Assembly: GCA_026392035.1 (NCBI GenBank)
Contig: JAPLCX010000097.1
Location: 1-64,000 of the forward strand
Source: Candidatus Auribacterota bacterium
GTDB lineage: Bacteria > Auribacterota > Tritonobacteria > UBA1439
Length of the DNA stretch: 64,000 nt
Reading direction: 5' to 3'
The translations under genes were made by a program, and so were the position numbers. Positions 52,259-63,819 of this stretch are shown one piece after another. Each line of letters opens with the position of its first letter. The stretch's first letter is position 1. The notes under the pieces were generated by a model. That model saw nothing but the letters and a program-made list of their open reading frames with translations. It made no database searches and was not told where the DNA came from.

Positions 52259-54409
52259 ATGACAACAGAGAAGAGAAAAGGATCCCACGACGTGAAACAG
52301 CAGATCTTTCCACTCTCTCTATTTGAGATGGCAGTGATTGCCGGCTTCTATATGTATGGGATAACACAATGGAGTAGCATACCCCATGTGGCGTTCGATG
52401 CATGCCTCTGTGGATCACTGCTGTTGTATTGGTCTGGAAGCCGTACTAAACTTTTGAGGGTACTGCTGTCGCCCCTGTGTGCATTTCCATTATCATATCT
52501 CCTTATCCTCGTCTGCCTCTGGAAAAGGTTTACCCCCTCATTGAGCGCTCTTATCTGGCATGACGATGCCCCTAATATTTACTATTCCACGATAGAGGGA
52601 TTAAGGATTCTGTCTGAGGGGGGAGTGGTTGGATGGAGATCGATAATGCTTGGGGGGTACCCGAGCATTTTTAACAGCAATTCCAACCTCGCATTGTTCT
52701 CGTGGCCGTTCATGCTCATCTGGGGCAATCAGACCGGCTTCAATGTCTTCATTTTTAGTACCATGATGATGTTCCCGCTGCTCTGCTACTTCTGTGCGAG
52801 GGCGTGGATTCGTTCCTGTCCGAGCGCTTCTGTGTGGGCGCTCTATTTCTCATGCGCATATCTGATCGGATACATGGGTGATTTCTTAGGGAATTGCACA
52901 TTCGACAACATGATCGCTATCGATCTCTATGTTCTCGCGCTCATGTTCGCGCGAGGCTTCCTGGATATGAAACCGATGAGCGGTTTCTACCTCGCGATCG
53001 CGATTGCACTGAGTGGTTACGCGCACCCCGCCTTTTTTGTGCTGTGTCTCTTGACTGTCTGTGCGCTCGTTATAGCGGGTTATAGAAGAATTGCTTACGT
53101 GGGCCGCCTGGCAATACTTCTTGTCGTTGTGTTCTTCTGCACGCTGCCGTACGGATGGTTTGTCCTAAATTACACGCGATACTTCGTCGAAAACCAGGAC
53201 AAGTTCGCTGTTGTCGCGGTTGACACTTCCTTCCATGCGCGTATCACCATGATCATACATGGCTTGAGGGGAATGCTCGATATGCCGGGAAGCCTGGCCC
53301 CGGGCATAGTCTTACTTCCGATCTGCGTGTGGCTCCTCATGCAGAGGACAGACAAGGAGATGCGTGCGGCGGCGTGGGCATATCTCCTCCTAATAGCGAT
53401 TATCGGTGTCGGGATGGAATTCACAGCTATGACCTTTCAGAGGATGCTGCGTGGGATGCCCGTCTTCTGGATTCTGTTCTTATCCGCGCAGACATCTCCA
53501 AAAGTGTCAGGGAATGGACGCGGGCGAACCCTGGCATCAAGTTTTTTGTTTTTCATAGTGGCTACATCTCTTGTAATGTCTGTTCCTTCTGCCATTTCCT
53601 GGTCAACCCCGCGTCTCAAGAGCCTTGACAGGTACAGTCGCCCTTTCCTGGAAATGATTGAGGGGCTGGGAGGGAATCTGGTGCTCTTCGAGGGGCAAGG
53701 TGGATTGAACCATGCAACCGAGACTGCCATGGCGCGGCGGAGCGAAAAGTGGTCCGATGACGTCCATCTTCTCGGTCCGATCGCACTTGCCACCGGAAAA
53801 AACTTTTTTTCATGGGATGCGGATGGATTCCATCCCAGCATCTTTCGTTCAAATGCAATCCCGTGTGGGACATATAAGGGCCGTTTCCTCTCCGAATATC
53901 CGCCACAGGAGATAAATGCCCTTTTGAAAAAGTGGGGGATCAAGTATCTCGTGTTGTGGAGCAATGAGGCACGGGACTATTTTGGCCGGCAAGGGGGTTC
54001 ATACAAACGCATATGGAATATTGACACCGGGGAATTGCAGAAAGCAGGTTTTGAGCCGGTGCGGTGGGAAATTTACGAGTTTTTTGATGCCGATCCGAGG
54101 AGCGTGGTGGTCGCCTCTGGATCTGGTGAGATTGAAACGAAGGATTATTTCACGAAGATTCTGCGTCTCCGGGGCGTGAAAAAGGGCGAGAAAGTGATCG
54201 TGCGCATGAATTATTTCCCGGCCTGGAGGGCGTTCTGGGAAGGGCATGATGTGGACTTGTTCAATGAGGATGGGCAACTGGCGATGCAATGCCCGGCGGA
54301 CGGGAATATGATTATCCGTTTATACTTCCCCAGGTACACAGTATTAACCATAATGGCGGTGCTGTCGCTCGCGGCATGTTTCTTCTTAGCGAAGAGGGGA
54401 TATGTGTAG
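52259..54409 (+). CDS. Large polytopic membrane protein, YfhO/GT-C-like
   Basis: The product has 716 aa. About 12-13 hydrophobic segments are present, the last one at the extreme C-terminus. The loop near residues 98-140 carries ALIWHDDAPNIYYST and LGGYPSIFNSNSNLALFSWP. The former has the acidic pair expected of GT-C enzymes and the latter resembles the YfhO loop phrase with G-x-P and N. The soluble domain (about residues 445-690) ends in a beta-sandwich with MNYFPAWRAFWEG, equivalent to FFPGWQAYVDG in the 27000 gene. It is therefore a distant YfhO relative. An AGGA ribosome-binding site precedes the ATG. First of three membrane-protein genes in a row. Confidence 0.84.
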   Translation: MTTEKRKGSHDVKQQIFPLSLFEMAVIAGFYMYGITQWSSIPHVAFDACLCGSLLLYWSGSRTKLLRVLLSPLCAFPLSYLLILVCLWKRFTPSLSALIWHDDAPNIYYSTIEGLRILSEGGVVGWRSIMLGGYPSIFNSNSNLALFSWPFMLIWGNQTGFNVFIFSTMMMFPLLCYFCARAWIRSCPSASVWALYFSCAYLIGYMGDFLGNCTFDNMIAIDLYVLALMFARGFLDMKPMSGFYLAIAIALSGYAHPAFFVLCLLTVCALVIAGYRRIAYVGRLAILLVVVFFCTLPYGWFVLNYTRYFVENQDKFAVVAVDTSFHARITMIIHGLRGMLDMPGSLAPGIVLLPICVWLLMQRTDKEMRAAAWAYLLLIAIIGVGMEFTAMTFQRMLRGMPVFWILFLSAQTSPKVSGNGRGRTLASSFLFFIVATSLVMSVPSAISWSTPRLKSLDRYSRPFLEMIEGLGGNLVLFEGQGGLNHATETAMARRSEKWSDDVHLLGPIALATGKNFFSWDADGFHPSIFRSNAIPCGTYKGRFLSEYPPQEINALLKKWGIKYLVLWSNEARDYFGRQGGSYKRIWNIDTGELQKAGFEPVRWEIYEFFDADPRSVVVASGSGEIETKDYFTKILRLRGVKKGEKVIVRMNYFPAWRAFWEGHDVDLFNEDGQLAMQCPADGNMIIRLYFPRYTVLTIMAVLSLAACFFLAKRGYV

Positions 54410-54544
54410 GGGTGTTAGATTTGAGAGAGAAGCAGGGCTCAATGTGCTTGCTATCCTTCCTCTGGTCATATGGGATATCCTCTCGCGGCGTGGGGTGCTG
54501 TAGTTCTCACTCCCCTTGAAAGGTGAAATGATGGGGTGGTGCGC

Positions 54545-56284
54545 ATGGTGACTTGGAACTATCGACACATGGAACCTGCCTGCCTGGAAACCTCGGGGAG
54601 AAATGCACGGAACCATCAACCCGATATGACCGCCTATCCAGAAGAAGCATTCGTAACACGCATCTGCACGATGGTACTCCTCCCCCTCTTCTTTTACCTT
54701 GCATGTTTCAGTGCCCTGACCTATCCTCTCATCACCCGTGTCGCAACACACTATATCTCCGATTCCGGGGACTGGTGCATGGATGCGCCTCAGAATATAT
54801 GGAACATGTGGTGGGTCAATAAGGCGGTGACAGAACTCCACCAGCCTGTGTGGCAGACAAATTACCTGCACTATCCACATGGCAGCACGCTCCTCGGTCA
54901 CACGCTTAATCCTTTCAATGGGTTTGCGGGTATTATCCTCCAGAGATTTATGACCCTCCCGCAGGCCTATAACACGATGGTCATATTCAGTTTTATCGTG
55001 GGGGGGTGGGCGGCGTTCTATCTCGCCTACCTATTCTCACGCTCCTACGCCGGCAGCCTGCTCGCGGGGTACATCTTCACCTTTTCACCCTTCCACTTCG
55101 CGCACGCCCTGGGGCACCTCCAGCTCGTCTCTCTCGAGTGGATCCCCCTCTTCATCGCGGCCTTCTATCTCTTTCTGGACAGGCCTACTGTGATCAGAGC
55201 GGCTGCGTCGGCATTGCTGCTCTTCCTCATCATCCTGTGCGACTACTATTATGCCTTCTATTCAATGGTGACGGCCGTCATCATCGCGGGGTACTGGATG
55301 TGGATGAAGAGAGACTTTCTCCTCCTGGTCAGGAGGGAGTACCGCAGGCCGATGGCGGTGTTTGCAGCCCTCGGCCTCGTCACCACAGGGGCGCTCGTAG
55401 GGTTTTTTATTCTTGCCCACCGCAGCGACCCGTTCACCGGCGGTCACTCGGTCGAGGAGAATTCGATGAACCTCTCGTCTCTTGTTATTTACGGGGGACA
55501 TTGGCGTTTCAGGGAATTAACGCGCCGCTTCTGGGAGGGGCTCCCCCCAAACCCCGTTGAGACGAGCGTGTATCTCGGGTTTTCGGTGATCGCCGTACTG
55601 GTGTACGCGTGGGTGAAGAGAAGGAAGATAGCGGCGCATGGACTGGGTCTCTGGTATTTCATTCTTCTCTTCTTTGTGATTCTGGCGCTCGGGCCCGTGA
55701 TGCGCATCGGAGGCAGTGCGCTCACGTGGTTCCCTCTCCCGTACAGTGCTCTCACATACATGTTCCCTCTCCTGAATCTTTCAGGATGCGCCATGCGCAT
55801 GATGGTTATGGTATACCTCTCCGCCGGCGTCATTGCCGCCATGGCGTACCCTCTTCTGCGCCGCGGGCTTCTTGGGAGTAAAATGGTTCTTGCCGTCTTC
55901 GTCATCCTCTTAGTTCTTGAGTACCTGCCGTATCCACTGTCCGCGCAGCGGGCGAGGGTTCCCGCCTATGTCCAGGTGTTCAGGGCCCTCCCCCCCGGCG
56001 CGGTAGCGGACTGTCTTAACGATAAATACAGTGCGCACTACTATCAAACACTGTACGAAAGACCGCGCGTCGCAGGTTACCTCTCGCGCTATCCTGCGAG
56101 TGTGGAGCGAAAATATACTGAAATTGACGAGGTGATGATGATGGATATTCCCCGATATTCAAAAAAGTTATATGACGAGTACAAGCTGCGCTATATCCTC
56201 ACGAAACCGGATTATCCACCCAATCCGAAATTAAAGCTGCTCTATACCGATGCGGAGTGTAGGATCTATGAACTCCAGCCGTGA
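54545..56284 (+). CDS. Polytopic membrane protein, GT-C-like
   Basis: The product has 579 aa from the ATG at 54545 (a GTG at 54536 and later ATGs are alternatives). About 11 hydrophobic segments. The N-terminal part reads TYPLITRVATHYIS, GDWCMDAPQNIWNMWWVNKA and YPHGSTLLGHTLNPF, and is homologous to the start of the 44666 protein (YPLIIGMTNT, EGAYWI, FFPHRDTL). A 110-aa soluble tail follows but no discoidin domain. 7 bp separate it from the GT87-like gene downstream. Function by analogy: transfer of a lipid-linked sugar. Confidence 0.82.
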   Translation: MVTWNYRHMEPACLETSGRNARNHQPDMTAYPEEAFVTRICTMVLLPLFFYLACFSALTYPLITRVATHYISDSGDWCMDAPQNIWNMWWVNKAVTELHQPVWQTNYLHYPHGSTLLGHTLNPFNGFAGIILQRFMTLPQAYNTMVIFSFIVGGWAAFYLAYLFSRSYAGSLLAGYIFTFSPFHFAHALGHLQLVSLEWIPLFIAAFYLFLDRPTVIRAAASALLLFLIILCDYYYAFYSMVTAVIIAGYWMWMKRDFLLLVRREYRRPMAVFAALGLVTTGALVGFFILAHRSDPFTGGHSVEENSMNLSSLVIYGGHWRFRELTRRFWEGLPPNPVETSVYLGFSVIAVLVYAWVKRRKIAAHGLGLWYFILLFFVILALGPVMRIGGSALTWFPLPYSALTYMFPLLNLSGCAMRMMVMVYLSAGVIAAMAYPLLRRGLLGSKMVLAVFVILLVLEYLPYPLSAQRARVPAYVQVFRALPPGAVADCLNDKYSAHYYQTLYERPRVAGYLSRYPASVERKYTEIDEVMMMDIPRYSKKLYDEYKLRYILTKPDYPPNPKLKLLYTDAECRIYELQP

Positions 56285-56290
56285 GGTGCT

Positions 56291-57493
56291 ATGAGAGCGA
56301 TGTTGGTTAAAAAAGCGGCATATGCATTCGTCCTCTTCTATTTCCTCTATCTGGTAGCTCATATTGCATTTGATAAAAGCGATGACTACCAGTGGGACTT
56401 TAGGTCAAATTGCAATGCTGCGAAGGCCTACGTCAGCGGATTAAATCCGTATTCGGGTACGTACTTACAATTCAATCGCGCCTATCCGTATCCCCCTCAC
56501 ACATTGTGGTTTTACAAGCTATTCACATTAGTAAACTGGAATACGGCGTTCTATCTTTTCTTGTTTTTGAAAGCTGCATTACTGGGATGGCTCATCTACC
56601 TCTGGCGCTCCAGGTTTATTGGAGAGGAGTGTGATGCCCTCTTCTTCTTATTTTGCATAGTGGCATACAACAGTCCTCTTTGTACAGACCTGTGGGTTGG
56701 CAATAATACGGTGATAGAGCAGTGTGTCCTCTGGTCTGCCTTCTCCTTTTACCTTCGGAGGAAGCTCGTGCCCTTCTGCGCCCTGGTTGTGCTCCTGGCA
56801 GCATGGAGAATTACCGAGGCCTATTTTCTCATTCTTGTGCTATTTTCTACCGACAAGAAAAGATATTTATACATGGTCGGTTCCTGTGTGGCGCTCGCGG
56901 GTATTTTATTGCTCTCGTTTCTCAAGAATCCGCAATTGTATGCGTCATCCGTGAATGGGATTATGAACCTCGCATTTATTAAGCAACATGGGGGTTTAGA
57001 GTGTCCGTCCTCATACTACTTTCTGCGAAGCTTATTTGATTTGCTGGCCAAAAAGACTGGGCTTGTGGTGCCGAGTCATATTACGTGGGGCTGCTATATC
57101 GGCATAGCCGTAATTGTTATTTCTCTGACGTATCAGGCGTGTGTCAGAGTGAGCGCGGCCCGATCAAAATCGGATGTACAGAAAATACTTGTATATCTCA
57201 ATTGTTTTGCATATGTACTCGTTCTTCCTTACATCTCAGATTACTGGTACGCTCTCCTTATCGTACCTACGTATTACGTGATGAAGAGAGCTACTCGGTT
57301 GAGTACCTACATTCTCCTGTTCATTCTGGCGAGCCTCTCAAAAGAGGGCAAATTTTTCTACGATGATGTGGTTGGACTCATGTGGAACTATTACCCGTTG
57401 CTTATTGCGTATGCGATGTGGGGAATATTCCTCGGCATACTTTGGGGGGACAACGCGCGCGCATATGACAGGGTACCAGAGGCGACACGATGA
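56291..57493 (+). CDS. GT87-like (DUF2029) polytopic mannosyltransferase family protein
   Basis: The product has 400 aa with about 10 hydrophobic segments. The first loop has YQWDFRSNCNAAKAYVSGLN followed by PYSGTYLQF and AYPYPPH, the D-x-x-x-x-x(N/Y) and YPP pattern of the GT87/PimE-like group. The motif NSPLCTDLWVGNNTV matches the GQ/GN-containing loop of the same family. GT87 enzymes use polyprenyl-phosphate mannose on the outer membrane face. It ends 47 bp before the end of the convergent rSAM gene. Somewhat AT-rich. Confidence 0.86.
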   Translation: MRAMLVKKAAYAFVLFYFLYLVAHIAFDKSDDYQWDFRSNCNAAKAYVSGLNPYSGTYLQFNRAYPYPPHTLWFYKLFTLVNWNTAFYLFLFLKAALLGWLIYLWRSRFIGEECDALFFLFCIVAYNSPLCTDLWVGNNTVIEQCVLWSAFSFYLRRKLVPFCALVVLLAAWRITEAYFLILVLFSTDKKRYLYMVGSCVALAGILLLSFLKNPQLYASSVNGIMNLAFIKQHGGLECPSSYYFLRSLFDLLAKKTGLVVPSHITWGCYIGIAVIVISLTYQACVRVSAARSKSDVQKILVYLNCFAYVLVLPYISDYWYALLIVPTYYVMKRATRLSTYILLFILASLSKEGKFFYDDVVGLMWNYYPLLIAYAMWGIFLGILWGDNARAYDRVPEATR

Positions 57494-57539: not shown

Positions 57540-58988
57540 TTATATGCGTTCCTCTGTAGATGCCTGTTTCTTTCGCAAAAGAAAAGATGTCAGGTTGGGG
57601 AGGAGGCTCAGGATGACCCAGAGGTATGAAGGGTTGCACAGTGTCTCTTTCATTGCCCTCAAGATGAACCGTGGACGGAAGTAAAATTCCCTGAAGGCCT
57701 TTTTGATCCATCGGGCGTGATCGAAACCGGCTATTTTCAGCTTCCCGCCCTCTGAAGAGAGCCACGTGGAAAAGGATGTCAGCTCGCCGCGGTAATGTTC
57801 CGGATGCCACCAGTTTTCCTGCACCGTGTGATCCCTGAGGCCTTGAGTGTAAATTGCAGTGCCCGGATATGCGGTCGTGAAGAAAAAAACCGCAATGTCG
57901 GGATTCAACTTCTTTGCAAGGTCGATAGTCTGCTGTGCGGTTTCCTGCGTCTCACCCGGGTTGCCGAGCATGAAGGCGGCATACGTTTTAATGCCGGCCT
58001 CATGTGTCATCCTGAAGGCCTCAATGATCTGGCCGACCGTGGTCCCCTTCTGAAGGTTGTCGAGTATCGTCTGAGAACCGGACTCGGCCCCGTACAGTAT
58101 CATGCTGCAGCCCGCCTTTTTCATTTCACCCAGCAGTTCTCGATCCACACAGTCAACCCGGCTGTTGCACCGCCAGGACATCTTGAGATTAGCCCGCTGA
58201 ATTTCTTCCATGAGGTGCATGCTATGCGCGCGATTCAGAGTAAACGTGCTATCCTTGAATGAAAAATGTCGTATGCCATGATCCTGCACAATAGATCTGA
58301 TCTCGTCAACGATCAAGGCAGGTGTTCGGAGTCTCAATTTCTTCCCCTGGCTTATGTAGGCGTCGCAGTACGAGCAGTGGTACGGACACCCCCGGCTTAC
58401 GATCATGGAGGCTACATTCTTCCCCGGTAGATAGGGCATGGAATAGGAAATCATATCGAGCATCCGGTAACTCAGCGGGTTCAGCTCGTCAATGTCGGGA
58501 ATAAAAGCTCTGTGTCTGTTCTTTTGGATTTTACCCGTGCCGTCTCTGTAGATCAGTCCCTCGACAAGAGGCCAGTGATGATTATCCGGTTTTAAGCACA
58601 ATTCCCACAGCGGGTATTCCCCCTCGCCGTAGATGACGAAATCGAGCTCGGGGCAGATGGTGAGGCTCTCTTCCATGGTGGCATTGGCATGGGCGCCGCC
58701 GAGACAGGTTTTGATATTTTTTTCGAGCGACTTGATTTGCCGCGCGATGGTGAGGGCTACGGGAAGCTGTGGCGTCATCGCGCTTATTCCGATCAAATCT
58801 GGAGCTGAAGCGGCAATCCGCTGAACGATCTCATCTACTGTCAGGCCCTTGATTTCGCCGTCGATCACGCCTGTCTCGATGCCGCGCCTCTGGAGAAACG
58901 TCGCCAGGTAGAGCGCGCCAAGCGGCTGGAGGCCGTAGCGTGGTTTCTGGCCGGGAATAAGCGGGGGATAGACGAGTTGGACTTTCAT
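57540..58988 (-). CDS. B12-binding domain radical SAM protein
   Basis: The product has 482 aa. Start MKVQLVYPPLIPGQ overlaps the upstream stop by 4 bp. The B12 domain contains a GIETGVIDGEIKG segment and LGGAHANATMEE; rSAM motif C201/C205/C208 (RGCPYHCSYC), FKDSTFTL, GAESGSQTIL and FYFRPRFILRAM at the C-terminus. It belongs to the FRP clade. Third gene of the operon GT2, FrhB-methyltransferase fusion, rSAM. The electron-transfer protein before it could in principle supply electrons to the enzyme, but this is speculative. Confidence 0.93.
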   Translation of the reverse strand: MKVQLVYPPLIPGQKPRYGLQPLGALYLATFLQRRGIETGVIDGEIKGLTVDEIVQRIAASAPDLIGISAMTPQLPVALTIARQIKSLEKNIKTCLGGAHANATMEESLTICPELDFVIYGEGEYPLWELCLKPDNHHWPLVEGLIYRDGTGKIQKNRHRAFIPDIDELNPLSYRMLDMISYSMPYLPGKNVASMIVSRGCPYHCSYCDAYISQGKKLRLRTPALIVDEIRSIVQDHGIRHFSFKDSTFTLNRAHSMHLMEEIQRANLKMSWRCNSRVDCVDRELLGEMKKAGCSMILYGAESGSQTILDNLQKGTTVGQIIEAFRMTHEAGIKTYAAFMLGNPGETQETAQQTIDLAKKLNPDIAVFFFTTAYPGTAIYTQGLRDHTVQENWWHPEHYRGELTSFSTWLSSEGGKLKIAGFDHARWIKKAFREFYFRPRFILRAMKETLCNPSYLWVILSLLPNLTSFLLRKKQASTEERI

Positions 58989-60976
58989 TGCGCGTTATGT
59001 GTCTCCTCGTCCGCGGTGATCTTCCGGCACCAGAGGATGCGGCGGAGACATATCCAGCGCCTTATTATTTCGGGAAGCAGGTTCTCGATCCACTCGCCGG
59101 TTCGCGTGATCCAGCGCGGGCCATAGGGGATGAGCACCGTGCTCTCTTCACGATCGATTTTAAAACCGGATTCCGCGAGGGATGACATGAGCTCTTTCCT
59201 GGGGATGAAACGGTGCGGGCCCTCGCCGTGGTGTAATCCCGTCGCCGCCGCGAACGTATGGAGCGGGTCCCAGAGCACATTCGGTGTTGTGAGCAGAAGT
59301 CCCCCCCCGGGTTTGAGAACACGGCTGAGTTCGGAAAGGAACTCATGATAGGCGAAGATGTGTTCGATGGTTTCGAATGAGACAATGTGGTCAAACAGAG
59401 CGTCATCGAACGGCAGGCGCATATCACGCCAGAGAAGCACCTGGTAGGTCATTCCTTCCCGCGAGAGTCTGTCCCTGCAGATGGAGACCATTGAAGCGGA
59501 GGGATCGAGGCCGGTCATTCGTATTCTCTTCCTCTTGCCGAAGTAGAGCGTCCCGTTGCCGGTGCGGCATGCGATGTCGAGTATGCGATCGCCTTCCCTG
59601 ATCTCACCGGCGCACACGCGATATCCGTCCGAAAACCGCCGCCCGTAGGAGTAGGTTTTTACATTGATCTCATCGTAGTCCTCTGTTGCATCCCAGTGCC
59701 GTCCCACATCATCGAGCGACCAGTAGCGATTCCCTTTGCCCCCGAGCCGCTTCTTGCTCCGCCCCCTGAATCCCCTCGCCAGCCAGCCCAGGGCGGTCAG
59801 GGGGAGGAGGCCGAGCATAATCCGCGCGGGGCGGCTCCTCCCGATGTGGAGTGTGACGAAGAAGAGGGCAGCAGAGATTTTTTCTGGCATCGAGAGTGGG
59901 AGATGTGGCAAATTGAATGCGGGAGTAGTGGGGGAGAGACTCAGCCGGACCGAGATCGCGCGTTTCTTGTACTGGATGAGGTGCGCGTGTGAGCGATAGA
60001 GCTGCGCGGAGGTCAGATCCTTGATTTGCAATGAGCTTCCTGCTGCTTGCAAAAGCTCCTTTCCTTTTTCTGTACGCACGATGATTGAGGAATATCCACG
60101 CTCCGCATCGTTGTCAGGCCAGTAGTCTCCGATCGAGATGTCGGCGAGTTCGGCGAAGAGGTCAGGGCAAACAGCGCAGCGCGGAGGGAGATGAGTGAGA
60201 TGGAGAAAGTTGTAGCTTTGTTTGGGGATAGAGAGGATTTTCCCATCCCTTGTCGAAACCGTGAAGCTGCCCGGCCACTCCCCCCCCCGGTAGCTGAGTG
60301 AGGAGACCTTGTGGGGATCGATACCCAGTTTCTTGAGGAGGAAAGGGGTCGCCTCCGGTGTGAGGTTAAAGCCGCAGAAGAGTCCGATGGTGTGGGTGAT
60401 CGGTGAGGCCGTCATGGCTCCTGACTGCTGCAATTTTCGAATGCCGTGAATGTGACAGGGAAGTCCGACAAGCGCAAGCGGGCCTCGCAGGTTTCCCGTT
60501 TCGGCGAGTGCACTGTTGATGGGAAGGAGGGTGTACTTTGACCCCGCAGCACCCGATATTTCCCCGACCGTCCTCGCAATCCTGATCTCCGGCTGGAATG
60601 GCCGCGCTTCCGACATGGCGCAGACGATGGCTCCCTGAATGAGATTGCTCCCCAGAGCGGAACAGAGAATCTCCGTCACGGCGCCGCCGGAAGAAAATGC
60701 GCCTGTGAGGGCACGACTGTCGGAACGGCCGATATACATGGCCCGGAAGCATCCGAAGTAGGGGTCGGGCACATGATCCGGGAACAAGCGATGATTCATC
60801 TCTTTGAAGTCAACGGCGATGCCGGGGCACGCTAGATAGCACGCGCCGCAATGATCGCACTCTTCGACGAGCTTCACATGACCCTCGATGTAACCAAGAG
60901 CCCTGTGGGGACATGCAGCGATGCAGGTGCCGCAGCTGTGGCAGAGAGCCTGAGGGATATCCAGGAAACTGGGCAT
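58985..60976 (-). CDS. Fusion of an F420 hydrogenase beta-subunit (FrhB)-like protein with a SAM methyltransferase
   Basis: The product has 663 aa. The N-terminal two 4Fe-4S motifs are CHSCGTCIAACP (about residues 12-23) and CDHCGACYLACP (about 40-51). An FrhB-like flavin/iron-sulfur oxidoreductase (about 75-340) follows, with GLPCHIHGIRKLQ, GLFCGFN, CAVCPDLFAELADISIGDYW and SIIVRTEKGKELLQ. A basic, partly hydrophobic linker (about 370-425) follows. The C-terminal part (about 430-640) is a class I methyltransferase with ILDIACRTGNG (motif I has Ala-Cys-Arg for the usual GCG), FETIEHIF and RVLKPGGGLLLTTPN. FrhB homologues occur in polysaccharide loci as putative reductases. The fused pair may reduce and methylate one substrate. 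The start lies 2 bp after the GT2 stop. Confidence 0.88.
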   Translation of the reverse strand: MPSFLDIPQALCHSCGTCIAACPHRALGYIEGHVKLVEECDHCGACYLACPGIAVDFKEMNHRLFPDHVPDPYFGCFRAMYIGRSDSRALTGAFSSGGAVTEILCSALGSNLIQGAIVCAMSEARPFQPEIRIARTVGEISGAAGSKYTLLPINSALAETGNLRGPLALVGLPCHIHGIRKLQQSGAMTASPITHTIGLFCGFNLTPEATPFLLKKLGIDPHKVSSLSYRGGEWPGSFTVSTRDGKILSIPKQSYNFLHLTHLPPRCAVCPDLFAELADISIGDYWPDNDAERGYSSIIVRTEKGKELLQAAGSSLQIKDLTSAQLYRSHAHLIQYKKRAISVRLSLSPTTPAFNLPHLPLSMPEKISAALFFVTLHIGRSRPARIMLGLLPLTALGWLARGFRGRSKKRLGGKGNRYWSLDDVGRHWDATEDYDEINVKTYSYGRRFSDGYRVCAGEIREGDRILDIACRTGNGTLYFGKRKRIRMTGLDPSASMVSICRDRLSREGMTYQVLLWRDMRLPFDDALFDHIVSFETIEHIFAYHEFLSELSRVLKPGGGLLLTTPNVLWDPLHTFAAATGLHHGEGPHRFIPRKELMSSLAESGFKIDREESTVLIPYGPRWITRTGEWIENLLPEIIRRWICLRRILWCRKITADEETHNAQ

Positions 60977-60978
60977 GG

Positions 60979-61812
60979 CTACCTTCTCTTGATGATGATG
61001 TCGGCGAGCAACCCGAGCAGGGCTATCTGGAGGGAGAAGAGTATCAGGATGATCGTGGTCACATCCATTACCCTGTGGAACGCGAAGAGGCTGTAGAGCC
61101 CCACCGCAAGTCCGGAGATGAGCAGGATCGCGCTCACGGGGAGGAAAATCTCGAGCGGCTTGAAATATGTGGCAAGCCGCACGATAAGAAGGAGGAAGTT
61201 TAAGAAATCGCGGATGGGGCGGATTTTGCTCTTCCTGCCCCTGCTCCGGTAACAGATGGGAACGTACTCGATCTTATGGCGATTGACCAGGTACGCAACC
61301 GTGAGCGTTGTGGTGAGAGAAAAACCATCAGGGAGGAGATGGAGGTAGCGCAGCGCCGTCTCCTTGCGAAAAACCCTCAGTCCCGAATTGAGGTCCGGCA
61401 CGCGAGTCCTCGTGAGCAGCCAGACTATCTCGCGGAGTATCGTCTTGGCGAGCCGGTTCAGCGGCGGGAGCGGGCTCCGGGCCCCGACGACCATTTCACA
61501 CCCAGCGAGTTTCCCGAGGAGCAAGTTGATCTGTTCAGGAGGGTATGTCGCATCAGCGTCAATGAGGGCAATCTGCTCGCCGGAGGCAGCTTTGATACCG
61601 TCTTTGACAGAGCTGCCGTAACCACAGTTGGCCTCATGGCAGATCAGGGTGATGCCGCTCATTGAGCGGAGGAGTTCAATTGAACCATCATTGCTCGCAT
61701 CATCCACCACGATGATTTCATATTTTTGGCCGTTGAGGGCGTGAGTAAGGCCATTGATGGTCGCCTGGAGTGTGTCACGTTCGTTGTATACCGGTACAAT
61801 AATACTGATCAA
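60979..61812 (-). CDS. GT2 glycosyltransferase with two C-terminal membrane helices
   Basis: The product has 277 aa. A TTG start at 61812 (decoded as Met, then ISIIVPVYNER) is preferred: GGAGG sits five bases upstream (complement of 61818-61822), and the promoter predicts transcription from about 61830, downstream of the GTG at 61833. VVDDASNDGS and IDADATYPP (DXD, near residue 86), PDLNSGLRVFRK and a terminal pair of membrane helices make it a paralogue of 15137-15985, of the DPG/GtrB type. It heads the operon and probably makes a polyprenyl-phosphate sugar for a GT-C enzyme. Confidence 0.91.
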   Translation of the reverse strand: MISIIVPVYNERDTLQATINGLTHALNGQKYEIIVVDDASNDGSIELLRSMSGITLICHEANCGYGSSVKDGIKAASGEQIALIDADATYPPEQINLLLGKLAGCEMVVGARSPLPPLNRLAKTILREIVWLLTRTRVPDLNSGLRVFRKETALRYLHLLPDGFSLTTTLTVAYLVNRHKIEYVPICYRSRGRKSKIRPIRDFLNFLLLIVRLATYFKPLEIFLPVSAILLISGLAVGLYSLFAFHRVMDVTTIILILFSLQIALLGLLADIIIKRR

Positions 61813-61836
61813 GAAAACCTCCGTACATTCCACTCC

Positions 61837-62046: not shown

Positions 62047-63819
62047 ATGAAAAGAGTGAAATGCATGCGCTATTTTTGTGATAGAGCACTCGTAATCCTT
62101 GTATTCTTCTTTATCTTGACCCGCTTGTTACTATTGCTCTTCGACTTTTCGGATCTGACCCAGGTCGAGGAACTCTATAACGGGACGCTGGCCAGAGAGA
62201 TCGTGCGCGGGCCGTTCTTGCCGTTGCTGCAATTGCGCTATATCGAGTACCAGAGCGGCTCTCTTATCGTGAGTTTCATCGCCATCCCCCTTTTCTATCT
62301 CTTCGGCGAAACCTACTTCACGCTCAAGCTGGTTGCCCTGCTCTTCTCCACTGCCACATTGATTATATTCTATCTATTGCTGAAACATTTCTACTCTCAG
62401 AGGGTGGCCACATGGGGCGGGATCATGTTTGTTTTCCCACCGCGGATTTTTGCGCTGCTCAACCTCAAGGTTGAGGGCGCAAATTCGCAGGCCATTCTCA
62501 TCACGTTCGTTATCTGGTATCTATTCTTTTCCCTCCTGCGCTATGAGAACGATCGTTCTCCGGGGGAAAAGCGTGAAGGGATGGGAAACGCGCGTGCGTT
62601 TCTTATCGGTCTCCTCTCCAGTTTCGGGGTATGGTTCTGCCCTGTGGTGCTCATCGCCATTGTCTGCATTGTCATCATCAGCTTTGCGCGCGATAAGCTG
62701 TTTTATTTCAGGAAGCGATTCGTATATTCATTCGCTGGGTTCTGGGTCGGCGCCATCCCTGCGATCATTGATTATCGAGCGACTGGTTATGCCGGATTGA
62801 AATACCTCCTGACACAACCCTATCAAGGCAGGACGTCCCCGTTCATCTCATTGATCACTGAACTGTGGGGGCGCGGCCTTCTCGACTCGGTTTCGTCAAA
62901 AAGCGTTCTCATTTCTGCGAGACTGATCAACATGTATTTCTACATCCTCGTGATATTTTCTATCGTCCTCTATCTTTGTTTCCAGCGGGGGCGTATAGTC
63001 TCTTTTCTGCGTGCCATGGTTTTTCCGGCGCGCTCCCATCCGCTGACGTTCGAAGTGGTGAAGGGCATTGCGTTCCCTCTGTACATCGTGGCGTTCTCGC
63101 TCGCGTACGGGGCGAGCAAGTACCATATCTCAAAGAGCCCTAGCGCAATAGACGCGTATCGATACCTCGTCTCGCTCTACCCATTCCTCTTTATTGTGGT
63201 AGTGCTTACAATGGATGAAATATGGGTGAGGGGATCGAGAATTGCCGTGGGGATTGTCACCTTAGCCATGATTCTCGGAGTCGCAGAAATTGCTGTTTCA
63301 CTCAATGGAAAGGACTACGGAAGGGGATTTCGGCTAAAGGGATACGACTACGAGATGCTCGGCCTGCGACTGTATGAGCAGATGAGTACGGCGCCGAATA
63401 GCGCCCTTGCGCTCGCCTCCGATAAAATAGCCGAGTATGGTAATCGTGATGCGTGCATAGGTGGTTTTGCGTTCATGTTTACCAAAGATTGTCTCAAGGA
63501 AAAGGGTGAGGGTGATCTCCGGTCCTTTGTGAGCCGGCTTGGATCGGTAGATGAGAGATGGCGTCCTTATTTTTATCGCGCCCTCGGGCAACTGCTCCCA
63601 TTTGACTTTTCGACCCGGGATGGCATCAATAAGTGGCACGCGATGCTGAATGCGATAGATGAGAAATATCTCACGTATTACTATGAAGGGGTGGGGAGCG
63701 TGGTGCGGAGTTGCTACCAGGACAATAGAGAGAAACAGATGGAGTGCGGGGGACATGTTCCTCCCCGGTTCAGCTCCGCGTTTGAGGCCGGCATGAGCAT
63801 CCCGTATCCCGTTCTGTAG
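62047..63819 (+). CDS. Polytopic membrane protein, GT-C-like, paralogue of the 2108 protein
   Basis: The product has 590 aa with about 10 hydrophobic segments in residues 12-420 and a charged soluble tail. The first loop has FDFSDLTQVEELYNGTLARE, with VEEL at 40-43 exactly as in the protein at 2108-3979. The tail (about 435-590) matches that paralogue too. The gene is followed after 13 bp by another membrane-protein gene. No clear ribosome-binding site; ATG at codon 7 is an alternative start. Glycosyltransferase function is inferred from loop acidic residues and context. Confidence 0.84.
   Translation: MKRVKCMRYFCDRALVILVFFFILTRLLLLLFDFSDLTQVEELYNGTLAREIVRGPFLPLLQLRYIEYQSGSLIVSFIAIPLFYLFGETYFTLKLVALLFSTATLIIFYLLLKHFYSQRVATWGGIMFVFPPRIFALLNLKVEGANSQAILITFVIWYLFFSLLRYENDRSPGEKREGMGNARAFLIGLLSSFGVWFCPVVLIAIVCIVIISFARDKLFYFRKRFVYSFAGFWVGAIPAIIDYRATGYAGLKYLLTQPYQGRTSPFISLITELWGRGLLDSVSSKSVLISARLINMYFYILVIFSIVLYLCFQRGRIVSFLRAMVFPARSHPLTFEVVKGIAFPLYIVAFSLAYGASKYHISKSPSAIDAYRYLVSLYPFLFIVVVLTMDEIWVRGSRIAVGIVTLAMILGVAEIAVSLNGKDYGRGFRLKGYDYEMLGLRLYEQMSTAPNSALALASDKIAEYGNRDACIGGFAFMFTKDCLKEKGEGDLRSFVSRLGSVDERWRPYFYRALGQLLPFDFSTRDGINKWHAMLNAIDEKYLTYYYEGVGSVVRSCYQDNREKQMECGGHVPPRFSSAFEAGMSIPYPVL

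Follow-up and report, generated by a model that had tools for sequence, protein, structure and literature searches.

A ferredoxin-FrhB-methyltransferase fusion protein encoded beside a polyprenyl-phosphate-sugar synthase: a candidate tailoring enzyme for lipid-linked sugars

Proteins of the FrhB/FdhB family, among them FrhB (subunit beta of the F420-reducing hydrogenase), the N-terminal half of Fsr, and FpoF, share a domain that carries a flavin and an iron-sulfur cluster, and FpoF and Fsr also have N-terminal ferredoxin motifs. In Frh, the [4Fe-4S] cluster of FrhB is bound by Cys104/134/192/195 (PMC3591093). Related FrhB-fold reductases use flavin adenine dinucleotide (FAD) and iron-sulfur clusters to reduce organic molecules: the FrhB-family 8-vinyl reductase BciB reduces its organic substrate with ferredoxin and FAD (PMC4836224), and 7-hydroxymethyl chlorophyll a reductase (structure 5dqr) is an enzyme of the same kind. 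Sugar tailoring has been described for radical S-adenosylmethionine (SAM) enzymes. AprD4, which acts on an amino sugar, is a radical SAM diol dehydratase that works in sugar deoxygenation with AprD3, a reductase using reduced nicotinamide adenine dinucleotide phosphate (NADPH) (PMC5461906), while HpnJ, from the HpnI-HpnK-HpnJ system, makes a cyclitol ether from lipid-linked glucosamine (PMC12583986). Here we describe a 663-amino-acid protein that joins two ferredoxin motifs, an FrhB-type domain, and a class I methyltransferase. It is encoded in a 64,000-nucleotide stretch of a Candidatus Auribacterota genome (assembly GCA_026392035.1, contig JAPLCX010000097.1, positions 1 to 64,000), the whole of which is referred to as the window. 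The fusion protein is genuine, conserved, and rare. With moderate confidence, we interpret it as a bifunctional enzyme that tailors a polyprenyl-phosphate-linked sugar by redox chemistry and methylation.

The fusion is encoded on the minus strand (58985..60976) by an open reading frame (ORF) that starts with ATG and runs in a single frame with zero internal stops. Its N-terminus is a double [4Fe-4S] ferredoxin-type region (residues 1-61; 60794..60976) with Cys 12/15/18/22 and 40/43/46/50, in which Pfam places Fer4 motifs above the gathering cut-off (within residues 10-61). This is followed by FrhB_FdhB_N (PF04422; residues 80-157; 60506..60739), which scores 61.9 bits against a cut-off of 22 (E-value 7e-17) and contains SSGGAVT, identified by alignment to Frh as the flavin-pyrophosphate helix motif, and by FrhB_FdhB_C (PF04432; residues 167-317; 60026..60478), which scores 121 bits against 23.3 (E-value 5e-35). 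Within FrhB_FdhB_C, C174, C201, C267, and C270 align with the four FrhB cluster ligands of Frh, and all 12 cluster cysteines expected of such a protein are present, eight in the ferredoxin part and four in the FrhB part. The C-terminal half is a class I methyltransferase domain (residues 419-663; 58988..59722), where Methyltransf_11 scores 66 bits against 21.2 (residues 466-561; E-value 5e-18), Methyltransf_25 and Methyltransf_23 also exceed their cut-offs, and the class I matches together span about residues 446-608. An alignment of nine such domains shows the clade motifs HWDATEDYDEIN..TYSY and LHHGEGPHRF. The domain composition proposed in the initial annotation was therefore correct; the fusion is assembled from known families and includes no new kind of fold.

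Both halves fall short of the equivalog or subfamily cut-offs of the named relatives. The fusion scores 98.4 bits against the FrhB profile (TIGR03289; cut-off 331.5) and 69.6 bits against that of FpoF (cut-off 475), and the methyltransferase half scores far below the two UbiE/MenG quinone methyltransferase cut-offs (46.7 versus 378 bits and 44.6 versus 158 bits). The nearest solved-structure relatives of this half include the D-glucose O-methyltransferase 6uv6, a likeness that is weak evidence because such methyltransferase matches are generic. BciB and 7-hydroxymethyl chlorophyll a reductase resemble the fusion in the kind of reaction that we propose, but their similarity to it is low (E-value 2.7e-11 for 5dqr), their substrates are pigments, and they have neither a methyltransferase nor a glycosyltransferase partner. 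The two halves are joined by a basic, partly hydrophobic interdomain region (residues 345-418; 59723..59944), preceded by an HxH....KKR motif (residues 330-339). The motif is invariant in the glycosyltransferase-linked members that cover it, except that one (G005, introduced below) ends in KKS, and it could bind phosphate or sugar. The linker segment of the window protein is not strongly amphipathic, and membrane binding by this segment is a guess.

The fusion gene lies in the middle of a three-gene operon, as first annotated; all three genes are on the minus strand, a detail absent from the initial annotation. The upstream gene (60979..61833), the stop codon of which is 2 nt ahead of the fusion ATG, encodes a family 2 glycosyltransferase (GT2; PF00535) that belongs to the polyprenyl-phosphate-sugar synthase type and, in a transmembrane (TM) scan, has membrane helices near its C-terminus. 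Its nearest solved structure is the dolichol-phosphate mannose synthase 5mlz (E-value 4.5e-18), followed by ArnC and GtrB; it also matches AglJ (TIGR04182), but at 131.2 bits it is below the equivalog cut-off of 325. The downstream gene (57540..58988), the start of which overlaps the fusion stop codon (ATGA), encodes a B12-binding radical SAM protein (rSAM; PF02310, PF04055). Its best profile is HpnJ (TIGR03471; 230.9 bits, cut-off 577.6), its score against the AprD4 diol-dehydratase profile (NF033070) is 106.3 bits against 500, and its nearest solved relative is AprD4 (6fd2; E-value 9.9e-24). The rSAM is thus close to sugar-modifying enzymes but, with both scores below the cut-offs, a member of neither family, and the reductase type also differs from those systems. 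A literal HpnJ/hopanoid function was rejected because the equivalog cut-off was missed and the window genome has no convincing hopene cyclase (best match 29.7 bits, in a 341-amino-acid frame).

Relatives show that the fusion is not an artefact. In what follows, the window genome is G000, genomes G001, G002, G003, and G005 belong to its family, and L-numbers denote relative loci. G001, from another genus, encodes a 659-amino-acid fusion that aligns over residues 1-656 with 51% identity. The gene order is also that of the window, with a GT2 (60% identity) and a B12-binding rSAM (51% identity) on either side of the fusion and the same 2-nt and ATGA spacings. An independent assembly with identical gene order argues against a chimeric contig, and misassembly, which the initial annotation had named as a possible flaw, was rejected given that Chloroflexota relatives carry the fusion as well. 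The search beyond the window suggested at that time found the Chloroflexota pair in six genomes, fused in five (L035, L036, L037, L038, and G572) and encoded by overlapping genes in one (G647). The fusions at L035, L036, L037, and L038 are 34-38% identical to the window protein, and that of G572 is 65% identical to L036. L038 has a frame break within the FrhB part, away from the junction, in a contig with a coverage of 2.9 according to its name.

The fused state is labile, but the pairing is constant. The methyltransferase subfamily occurs with FrhB in nine of nine genomes, fused in G000, G001, L035-L038, and G572, and split in G005 and G647. In G005, separate ORFs encode FrhB and the methyltransferase and overlap in the ATGA manner; in G647, a 463-amino-acid FrhB and a 260-amino-acid methyltransferase overlap by 4 nt. 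Separate genes had been named in the initial annotation as something that would refute its reading. They do exist in these two genomes, but because they overlap in one operon there, they support a functional link rather than refute it. On the methyltransferase tree, the fused or split state switches at least two times. G005 groups with the window on the FrhB tree and with Chloroflexota on the methyltransferase tree, a discordance that could mean that the two halves have in part evolved apart.

Although rare, the pair is consistent. A profile of the nine methyltransferase domains, searched against 384 genomes domain-wide, had just three strong matches, in G000, G001, and G005; a fourth match, in G026, was partial (78 bits). 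Among 400 sampled genomes from the phylum of the Chloroflexota relative, with two candidates scored per genome, the fusion was found in the centre genome only, and among 154 genomes from its order the pair was found in five. A search of viral contigs yielded no relatives. FrhB alone occurs in 116 plasmid records, none of which covers 80% of the query; the surroundings are mixed (nitrite reductase, ectoine transport, amino-acid use), such that no one context fits all FrhB proteins.

A DPM1/ArnC-type GT2 is encoded directly upstream in all eight loci with upstream DNA (the window, G001, L035, L036, L038, G647, G100, and G019), which span two phyla. An LPG_synthase_TM protein with multiple membrane spans is encoded downstream in five of the six loci from Chloroflexota, the exception being G572. 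An rSAM is encoded beside the pair in only two of the nine genomes, the window and G001; G005 and five Chloroflexota loci do not have one. In G002, a B12-binding rSAM and a ferredoxin-FrhB protein share a single reading frame (L045:7638-10565), with about residues 334-1308 being credible. In G003 (L046:9371-11877), a radical-SAM-like ORF with a CxxxCxxC motif (L046:11877-10792) lies directly ahead of the FrhB gene.

All 12 cysteines are kept in the window protein, G001, L038 (its two pieces combined), and 10 related FrhB proteins that stand alone or are differently fused, and the flavin motif SGGxxT is retained wherever it can be read. The G019 protein has the four FrhB ligands and ferredoxin cluster I and lacks C40, C43, and C46. 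With regard to the electron donor, no CofD (TIGR01819) above cut-off was found in the window genome or its phylum sample, where three controls passed. This sets the genome apart from the described FrhB/FdhB systems and makes F420 an unlikely hydride carrier; F420 dependence of the fusion was rejected on these grounds, and ferredoxin is the likelier electron partner.

From these observations we infer a substrate, an order of steps, an electron donor, and a chemistry for the fusion. At the membrane, the GT2 would make a polyprenyl-phosphate sugar. A single redox step would then be performed by the FrhB half, acting as a FAD/[4Fe-4S] oxidoreductase that probably draws its electrons from ferredoxin and not from F420; the target of this step would be either the GT2 product or an intermediate that the downstream rSAM makes. 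The methyltransferase half would next methylate the redox product using SAM, and the finished sugar would be handed to adjacent membrane glycosyltransferases. That both activities act on the same lipid-linked sugar was already raised in the initial annotation, and the idea has been strengthened by the presence of the GT2 in eight of eight loci across two phyla and by the restriction of the methyltransferase subfamily to FrhB partners. A narrower version, in which the redox step creates the very group that is then methylated, on the same carrier-bound sugar and without release from one polypeptide, is less probable. Because the methyltransferase partner and the polyprenyl-phosphate-sugar synthase are both constant, they point to a substrate class that is concrete and testable.

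Several observations weigh against a redox and methylation enzyme. Five Chloroflexota members (L035, L036, L037, G572, and G647) lack all four FrhB-cluster ligands, with C174 replaced by D, C201 by T or V, C267 by T, and C270 by S or A; SGGxxT is retained in these proteins too where readable. Four of the five reach the N-terminus and have also lost ferredoxin cluster II, keeping exactly Cys 12, 15, 18, and 50, which we take to be the set expected for cluster I of 2[4Fe-4S] ferredoxins. With the cluster ligands gone and the pairing persisting, these members may have a changed redox role or none. G019 has the GT2 and FrhB without the methyltransferase. Finally, AlphaFold2 models of the window protein and four relatives (mean predicted local distance difference test score 44, predicted template modeling score 0.40) are too poor to place a flavin site or domain contacts. 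Chloroflexota FrhB proteins lacking all four FrhB-cluster ligands are encoded at loci L035, L036, L037, L067, and L068.

The initial annotation also suggested that the fusion could reduce the downstream rSAM, which is the weaker of its proposals. The FrhB half would be a dedicated reductase for the adjacent B12-binding rSAM, reducing its cob(II)alamin, its [4Fe-4S] cluster, or, like AprD3 with AprD4, its product, with the methyltransferase acting later on the same product; we consider this a serious but unlikely alternative. The ATGA overlap between the fusion and rSAM genes, in an order repeated in G001, is consistent with such a role, as are the in-frame rSAM::FrhB fusion of G002, from the same family, the radical-SAM-like ORF ahead of FrhB in G003, and the fact that AprD4, the nearest solved relative of the rSAM, works with the separate reductase AprD3. 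Against this, adjacency is limited to two of the nine genomes with the pair, and a general role as rSAM reductase is weakened by the five Chloroflexota members that have lost every FrhB-cluster ligand. Moreover, 16 of the 43 window ORFs are radical SAM proteins (13 B12-type and three others), so an rSAM beside the fusion is unsurprising, and the genome has a single FrhB.

Loss of ligands with retention of the pairing in the same five proteins, together with the C-terminal extension of FrhB, which is basic and in part hydrophobic, would also fit an FrhB half that is a relic scaffold holding the methyltransferase close to the GT2 on the membrane, leaving SAM-dependent methylation as the only chemistry. 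This is improbable, since the ligand cysteines are intact in the window, G001, L038, and the 10 related proteins and the flavin motif is kept wherever readable, indicating selection for redox function in those proteins. Slightly more improbable is a reading in which the FrhB half saturates one isoprene of the polyprenyl carrier, yielding a dolichol-like lipid for the DPM1-like GT2, with the methyltransferase modifying the carried sugar or lipid. The constancy of the GT2, and the ability of BciB to reduce carbon-carbon double bonds with ferredoxin, are compatible with carrier saturation, but it has no direct evidence and leaves the constant methyltransferase partner unexplained, and the known isoprene reductases belong, to our knowledge, to a family other than FrhB. 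The shifting fused state on the tree, with two of nine pairs split, might suggest that the genes were joined by chance or by artefact and that the fusion has no function. The relatives already refute this, given independent assemblies, two phyla, motifs conserved at 34-51% identity, and a conserved operon, and we regard it as very nearly discounted.

If the narrower version, with redox step and methylation coupled on one carrier-bound sugar, is correct, at least two bacterial phyla have a redox-and-methylation module for lipid-linked sugars that operates with or without a B12-binding rSAM. FrhB-like proteins beyond methanogens are common in public records, where they are mostly without an assigned function and labelled F420 hydrogenases; several of those encountered here are encoded beside polysaccharide genes. 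No published description of an FrhB-methyltransferase fusion was found in the open-access literature on FrhB in polysaccharide or radical SAM contexts. The subgroup that has the flavin motif without the FrhB-cluster ligands is a natural experiment on the purpose of the cluster.

The surroundings of the operon are rich in membrane proteins. Three multi-membrane-span ORFs of 716, 582, and 400 amino acids, the last of them GT87, lie on the plus strand at 52259..57493; they have 6-8 hydrophobic segments, and their counterparts flank the operon in G001, with 34-62% identity to the G001 neighbours. On the other side, also on the plus strand, is a 590-amino-acid multi-span membrane protein (62047..63819; TM scan) with a 43% identical counterpart at the G001 locus. 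The GT2 likely starts at a TTG at 61812, right after GGAGG, rather than at the listed GTG at 61833, and the G001 GT2 has a Met aligned with this TTG. Three of the radical SAM ORFs in the window are SPASM-type, and one of the 13 B12-type ORFs falls just under the B12 cut-off; the whole genome has 28 B12-binding matches over cut-off. Between positions 154 and 49870 of the window, radical SAM genes are interleaved with genes for multi-span membrane proteins and GT2-like genes, and this stretch resembles a large island for the tailoring of lipids or surface glycans.

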